DNA of 44,238 bases, from the NCBI GenBank assembly GCA_001920415.1, contig MNJR01000139.1:30374-74611 (forward strand), in the 5' to 3' direction. Below the pieces are notes generated by a model. It saw only the letters and a program-made list of their open reading frames with translations. It made no database searches and was not told where the DNA came from. Positions 2,937 to 40,119 of this stretch are shown here, one piece after another. Position numbers and translations under genes: made by a program. The stretch is from Acidobacteria bacterium 13_1_20CM_3_53_8 (GTDB lineage: Bacteria > Acidobacteriota > Blastocatellia > Pyrinomonadales > Pyrinomonadaceae). The stretch's first letter is position 1; the number at the start of each line of letters is the position of its first letter.

Positions 2937-3008
2937 CTGTTTATACAAGCTTTGAATGAAGCAATACGGCTTTCATCATCGCAGACCGTAGAGAGTGCAG
3001 AGGAATCA

Positions 3009-3124
3009 TACAGCGGTGGTCATTCGGATGCGACTTGATGCTGGCAGTTTGCCGTCGTGTTCGCCAAGAACGGGCGTAAGACGGGGCATTTGGCGGAAGT
3101 CGCATGCGTATGACCACCGCTATA
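3009..3124. repeat. TATAGC-ended palindromic element, copy 1
   Basis: The ends are imperfect inverted repeats: TACAGCGGTGGTCAT (3009-3023) against ATGACCACCGCTATA (3110-3124), continued inward by GGATGCGACTT against AAGTCGCATGCG. The ends resemble those of the other elements in this family. The interior (about 3040-3095) is distinct. No coding capacity is evident. Confidence 0.75.
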
Positions 3125-3165
3125 GAAGATTTGAAATTTCAAATTTCAAATTTGAAATCAGGAAT
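3125..3165. repeat. AT-rich palindromic/tandem stretch
   Basis: Alternating TTTGAAATTTCAAA-type units, nearly palindromic, directly follow the preceding TATAGC element. A comparable AT palindrome follows the TATAGC-type element at 19.9 kb. Confidence 0.6.
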
Positions 3166-3221
3166 GCCTTACGCGAGTTCGATATAAACCATGAAGAGAA
3201 AGGAGCGAATGAATTATCCAC

Positions 3222-3368
3222 TATAGCGGTTCTCACTTGGGTGCGACCACTCTGATCAAGGCATGCAGGTCAGTACCGCCTGCGGTAGCGGGCGGGTCGT
3301 AGCCGCACCGATACCCGCCCGCTACCGCAGGCACTGACATGAGTCGCATTCAAGTGAGAACCGCTATA
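3222..3368. repeat. TATAGC-ended palindromic element, copy 2
   Basis: Terminal inverted repeats start TATAGCGGTTCTCACTT and end with the complement. An inner GC-rich inverted repeat (left 3269-3297, right about 3313-3338) contains GTACCGCCTGCGGTAGCGGG. The 15-nt loop is GTAGCCGCACCGATA-like. The left arm is longer than the right, with extra sequence 3239-3268. A near-identical copy at 39879-40028 has the long and short arms exchanged. Confidence 0.9.
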
Positions 3369-3422
3369 AATCACACGAAAGAACACTAAATGAATTCTTC
3401 TCTTCGTGTCGTTTCGTGTGAT
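3366..3422. repeat. inverted repeat of CACACGAAA units
   Basis: AAATCACACGAAAGAACAC is followed by the complement TCTTCGTGTCGTTTCGTGTG around an EcoRI-like GAATTC centre. It abuts the TATAGC element exactly as the counterpart at 40026-40083 does. The following 3425-3550 is pyrimidine-rich, low-complexity sequence with no gene. Confidence 0.75.
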
Positions 3423-3550
3423 GCGCGTGGATAATTCTCTCTTTCGTCTTTCTCTCTCTTACGTCGTACTCGCGTTGCTTTATTCTTCTCTCTGTAATCT
3501 CTGCGTGCTCTCCGATCTGCTTCCATCTCTCTTTCTTCCATGAGTAGCGT

Positions 3551-35110: not shown

Positions 35111-35249
35111 TATAGCGAGTTGCAATAAAGTGCGACTCAAGTCAGTACCGCCTGCGGTAGCGGGCGGGTCTTTAGCACATCCATAACCCGCCCGCTACCG
35201 CAGGCGGTACTGACCTGTACTTGGTCACACTCAATTGCAATTAGCTATA
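35111..35249. repeat. TATAGC-ended palindromic element, copy 4
   Basis: TATAGCGAGTTGCAA...AGTGCGACT and the complementary TTGCAATTAGCTATA ends flank the same GC-rich inner inverted repeat as copies 2 and 5 (GTACCGCCTGCGGTAGCGGG), with a different loop (TTTAGCACATCCATAA). The arms are more diverged than between copies 2 and 5. Confidence 0.88.
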
Positions 35250-39804: not shown

Positions 39805-39878
39805 GAGACGAAATCGGCATCTGACATCTGGCATCTAATACCAAGATGCAATTAAAAGAGAGGAAGAGATTGATCCAC

Positions 39879-40028
39879 TATAGCGGTTCTCACTTGAATG
39901 CGACTCATGTCAGTACCGCCTGCGGTAGCGGGCGGGTCGTAGCCGCACCGATACCCGCCCGCTACCGCAGGCGGTACTGACCTGCATGCCTTGATCAGAG
40001 TGGTCGCACCCAAGTGAGAACCGCTATA
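39879..40028. repeat. TATAGC-ended palindromic element, copy 5
   Basis: Nearly identical to copy 2 (3222-3368). The flanks and the loop (GTAGCCGCACCGATA) are collinear, but the short arm is on the left and the long arm on the right. The copies also differ by three bases in the inner repeat (GGCGGTACTGAC against GGCACTGAC). Confidence 0.9.
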
Positions 40029-40083
40029 AATCACACGAAACAACACGAAACCACAATCTCTTTCGTGTTGTTTCGTGTGATTT
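40026..40083. repeat. inverted repeat of CACACGAAA units
   Basis: AAATCACACGAAACAACACG is followed by the complement TTTCGTGTTGTTTCGTGTGA. It sits at the right side of element copy 5, as in copy 2. Confidence 0.8.
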
Positions 40084-40119
40084 AGTGGACTGTATTCCTC
40101 TTTCCTGATTGTATCTTAG

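Follow-up and report, generated by a model that had tools for sequence, protein, structure and literature searches.

A composite MITE with a REPIN-like core, inserted at TA in either orientation and carrying inverted hairpin loops, in a Pyrinomonadaceae genome

Transposases of the IS630 family target TA, which is duplicated on insertion (PMC2170065). Among other small mobile repeats, REPINs are doublets of REP sequences associated with RAYT genes (PMC3116915), and the classical REPs have been described with a GTAG tag (PMC3733652). In chloroplast genomes, a few bases can be inverted between the inverted repeats of a stem-loop, recurrently and mostly in intergenic DNA (PMC6444266), and in invertons, the switches of phase variation, a segment between inverted repeats is found in both orientations. 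Here we describe an element of a Pyrinomonadaceae genome in which two mobile systems, MITEs of likely IS630 type and REP doublets, are joined, and in which what appeared to be a genetic switch probably is the mark of hairpin-arm recombination.

The window (the whole stretch of DNA analysed, 44,238 nt) lies on contig C24 of a 6.1-Mb draft assembly. The original prediction had described in it two near-identical palindromes whose flanks and loop share one orientation while the arms are exchanged, and the sequences match that description. Element 1 measures 143 nt (3224-3366, with TA at 3222-3223 and 3367-3368) and element 2 measures 146 nt (39881-40026, with TA at 39879-39880 and 40027-40028), and 36.7 kb separates them. 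The reverse complement of element 2 is exactly element 1 but for two differences: the 15-nt loop is inverted, and 3 nt (GGT) are missing from the right arm of element 1. This bears out the exchange of arms around an unchanged loop; the 3-nt deletion had gone unmentioned. The parts of both elements are summarized in Table 1. With a z score of -15.8 for the single-strand fold relative to dinucleotide shuffles, and with about 45 related copies in the genome, many of them identical across the whole element, the two palindromes are far beyond chance.

Table 1. Repeat elements in the window and their parts
Feature	Positions	Strand
Element 1, likely IS630-type MITE, 143 nt flanked by TA, loop in orientation A	3222..3368	+
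Element 1, left terminal inverted repeat TAGCGGTTCTCACTTG	3224..3239	+
Element 1, right terminal inverted repeat	3351..3366	-
Element 1, left REP unit GTCAGTACCGCCTGCGGTAGCGGGCGGGT	3269..3297	+
Element 1, loop CGTAGCCGCACCGAT	3298..3312	+
Element 1, right REP unit, with the 3-nt deletion also found in the copy at C1:62027	3313..3338	-
Element 2, same MITE in opposite orientation, 146 nt flanked by TA, loop in orientation B	39879..40028	-
Element 2, REP unit	39909..39937	+
Element 2, loop, in the window oriented as in element 1, flipped relative to the arms	39938..39952	+
Element 2, REP unit	39953..39981	-
Third element, TAGCGAGTTGCAAT-type TA-flanked ends and the same REP-pair core, between a TamB-like and an Omp85-like gene	35111..35249	-
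Host palindromic repeat (ATCCACTA^AATCACACGAAA...TTTCGTGTGAT...GTGGAT) with element 1 inserted at its TA (limits approximate)	3216..3434	.
Host palindromic repeat with element 2 inserted at the corresponding TA (limits approximate)	39873..40088	.

Using element 1 as the query, we obtained 81 matches on both strands at about 45 places in its own genome, and TA was present on both sides of all 29 full copies that could be bounded. The copies of the main subfamily end in TAGCGGTTCTCACTTG and its complement, and these 16-nt terminal inverted repeats are perfect in nearly all of them; the elements are 143 to 146 nt long and hold no coding sequence. The end sequence was present in only 3 of 119 genomes of the family. 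Both palindromes are copies of a multi-copy, non-coding MITE family. They resemble the MITEs of the IS630/Tc1-mariner group in being short and non-coding, in their terminal inverted repeats, flanking TA and insertion in either direction, and apparently also in having ends like those of an IS630-like gene; they differ in that the middle is a REP pair rather than IS-derived sequence, and in that 12 of the 29 full copies have the same target, a particular TA in another repeat.

The terminal repeat of the MITE was also found at five contig ends. At three of these (C93, C149, and C100) it is followed by a gene start, MKAYSLDLR..., an N-terminus that we take to be IS630-like, and at the other two (C97 and C148) it is joined to the C-terminus ...DIRGWFTHCGYSVALK*, with the stop codon inside the repeat. 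This pattern points to an IS630-family gene that was collapsed or lost in assembly, the intact parent IS being absent from the assembled genome. The sole strong DDE_3 (IS630) hit, at C97:125482, was considered as the parent and rejected; its other ends and a stop mark it as a different IS630. 'Pyrinomonadaceae bacterium MGR_bin10' carries an internally deleted IS630 relative (L132) with a matching end, TAGCGGTTCTCACTTGCGTGCGACTGAGT, and the C-terminus GWFKHCGYSVARK*; its HTH segment matches the NCBIfam IS630 model at 1e-8, with a score that stays below the full-length cut-off of the model because the copy is internally deleted. Judging from the shared ends, the MITE is likely moved by an IS630-family transposase acting in trans, which would recognise the 16-bp ends.

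The outer flanks that elements 1 and 2 share, CCACTA...TAAATCACACGAAA, come from another repeat family that both have entered: both lie at the TA of CCACTA^AATCACACGAAA, and the two copies in the window have the same flanks because they inserted at this same TA. Many empty host repeats (CCACTAAATCACACGAAA) occur in the genome, with a single TA at the empty sites. The 12 bounded copies at the host-repeat TA lie in mutually different host copies and therefore represent independent insertions, nested in another repeat; a rough binomial estimate for 12 of 29 gave p < 1e-13 even with only a tenth of the genome available, on the assumptions that there are a generous 400 host sites and that insertion requires nothing but a TA. 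Among the main-subfamily copies at this TA (n = 10), the two orientations were represented 5 versus 5, as two-way insertion predicts, so that no inversion of the whole element is needed. Thus, the exchange of arms between the two palindromes reflects insertions in opposite orientations, and whole-element inversion in place, one of the two nested inversions in the original prediction, was rejected, as separate TA-flanked insertions account for the mixture; the other, inversion of the loop relative to the arms, held up (see below). The host repeat belongs to an abundant second palindromic family (ATCCACTAAATCACACGAAA...TTTCGTGTGATTTAGTGGAT), a strong MITE hotspot seen in the window at 3363-3434 and 40023-40088 and also in L062 (1501-1567).

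The centre of the element consists of two inverted REP units around the 15-nt loop, with perfect arms of 29 bp. Copies of the inner arm, GTCAGTACCGCCTGCGGTAGCGGGCGGGT, are dispersed: this unit forms 75 inverted pairs in its own genome and has matches in 50 of 97 searched genomes (its own included), other families of the class among them. In a relative (G002), REP units occur singly and form stem-loops, and among 29 of them the stem pair 9:24 varies in a compensatory way, being A-T in 16 and G-C in 11. An ORF of 169 aa that is Y1/RAYT-like was found at L101 1303-2006 (contig C23) with a REP pair on each side; it scored 25.8 with Pfam Y1_Tnp (cut-off, 23) and only a weak 25.6 bits with REP_Tyr_transpos (cut-off, 80), and it may encode the transposase that acts on the REP core. 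Of the four Y1/IS200-like genes, those at C57, C142, and C130 were set aside, having no REP core nearby.

The core shares with REPINs (PMC3116915) a hairpin made of two inverted REP units around a short spacer, the occurrence of single units elsewhere, and perhaps the association with a RAYT gene, in that doublets flank the RAYT-like ORF; from these sequence features we regard the core module as REPIN-like. No GTAG (or CGTC) tag was seen at the REP end; the unit begins GTCAG, in contrast to the GTAG-tagged classical REPs (PMC3733652), and is therefore described as REPIN-like rather than filed as a GTAG REP. A further difference from REPINs is that MITEs carry the doublet, including several MITE types with other ends. 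In the literature searched we found no report of a MITE with a REPIN core, though this does not prove that none has been described. Two elements with this core, L037 and L055, are chimaeric, with arms of different MITE families and the joint in the core.

The loop occurs in both orientations relative to the arms. Among the 24 near-identical copies of the main subfamily, 5, including element 1, carry loop A, and 19, including element 2, carry loop B. Other changes were found in 4 of the 5 A copies but in 2 of the 19 with loop B (Fisher p 0.0065; the numbers are small), and two A copies, element 1 and the copy at C1:62027, share the 3-nt deletion. As changes are concentrated in the A copies, loop orientation appears to be inherited along lineages of copies, with B seemingly a recent burst. 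By eye, the loops of the related subfamilies L026 and L030 are B-like. In a genome of another genus (G017), two elements (L175 and L182) are identical but for an exactly inverted 13-nt loop, which represents an independent second flip, and three others there (L170, L172, and L232) share nearly the same arms but carry other loops.

All genomes examined are draft assemblies, and the perfect 29-nt arms exceed small k-mers, which cannot tell loop orientations apart when shorter than the arms, so that the loop difference might have been an artefact of assembly. We consider this very improbable: the whole hairpin spans only 73 nt, less than usual reads and final k-mers, the flip state is linked to other changes, the shared arm deletion included, and flips were found in two different assemblies. 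Thus, the loop flip is genuine, and in the draft assemblies both inversion and replacement of the loop recur.

With inverted repeats at both levels and a loop orientation that varies among copies, the locus could be taken for a nested phase-variable switch, and the original prediction likened it to one. In the full form of this reading a recombinase would invert, in place, the element between its terminal repeats and the loop between the inner ones, and regulation would change as a result. However, copies that differ in orientation are separate TA-flanked insertions, at sites unrelated to one another; the flip state correlates with copy lineage; and the arms are dispersed REP units, widespread in relatives and present as singlets too, not known recombinase sites. 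Moreover, both elements are intergenic, element 1 having a small ORF (2541-2867) on one side and an M50-like peptidase gene on the other and element 2 lying upstream of a patatin-like gene, and neither encloses a gene. In the ten window proteins scanned, mostly near the elements, no Pfam match to a recombinase was obtained. The likeness to invertons is thus limited to a segment seen in both orientations between inverted repeats, as these elements enclose no gene and no alternation at the same site was seen in the draft assemblies. Nested phase switching in place found no support, and we consider this reading extremely improbable.

We consider it highly probable that the two palindromes are non-autonomous IS630-family MITEs with a REPIN-like core, which insert at TA in either direction and rarely undergo a loop flip that is then inherited. 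An IS630-type transposase would insert the MITE in trans at TA, duplicating it, in one orientation or the other, which would produce the apparently exchanged arms, and a favoured target, one TA of the second, unrelated palindromic repeat, would produce the shared flanks. Rarely, the 15-nt loop between the perfect REP arms would be inverted, through recombination or through replication template-switching across the hairpin arms, and the flipped variant would then be multiplied by transposition. In its shape this flip recalls the chloroplast inversions, but here the arms are 29 nt long, the loop is 13 to 15 nt, and the flipped state appears to be spread by transposition. As the near-identical transposon copies record when a loop flipped, they could make the rate and mechanism of loop inversion measurable.

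The loop could also be flipped or replaced by exchange between different REP-pair hairpins, through gene conversion or crossover in the shared 29-bp arms. Near-identical arms do carry quite different loops (L040/L041, as well as L170/L172/L232), which together with the chimaeras, joined between MITE families at the core, suggests repeated exchange of hairpins. Copies that are flipped but otherwise identical (L175/L182, and L003 versus the B copies) need only an intramolecular inversion, although both mechanisms can leave the same product, and inter-hairpin exchange is, as a source of the flips, possible but somewhat doubtful. Arm-mediated inversion, probably by a hairpin or template-switch route, appears to be the best account, and what is seen in this composite of MITE and REP doublet is probably ordinary MITE transposition together with recurrent, probably rare inversion of this kind. 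More speculatively, the hairpin might be an exchange cassette, whose loop is repeatedly inverted and swapped among MITE families, perhaps by RAYT-like single-strand cleavage at the REP arms, so that MITEs with unrelated ends are rebuilt at a shared core; we consider this improbable.

Two further repeats were observed in the window. The third element in Table 1, whose ends differ from those of elements 1 and 2, was absent from the original prediction. About 100 bp upstream of element 1, at 3008-3126, lies an imperfect palindrome with TAGCGGT...TGCGAC-like ends, which is single-copy in its own genome.
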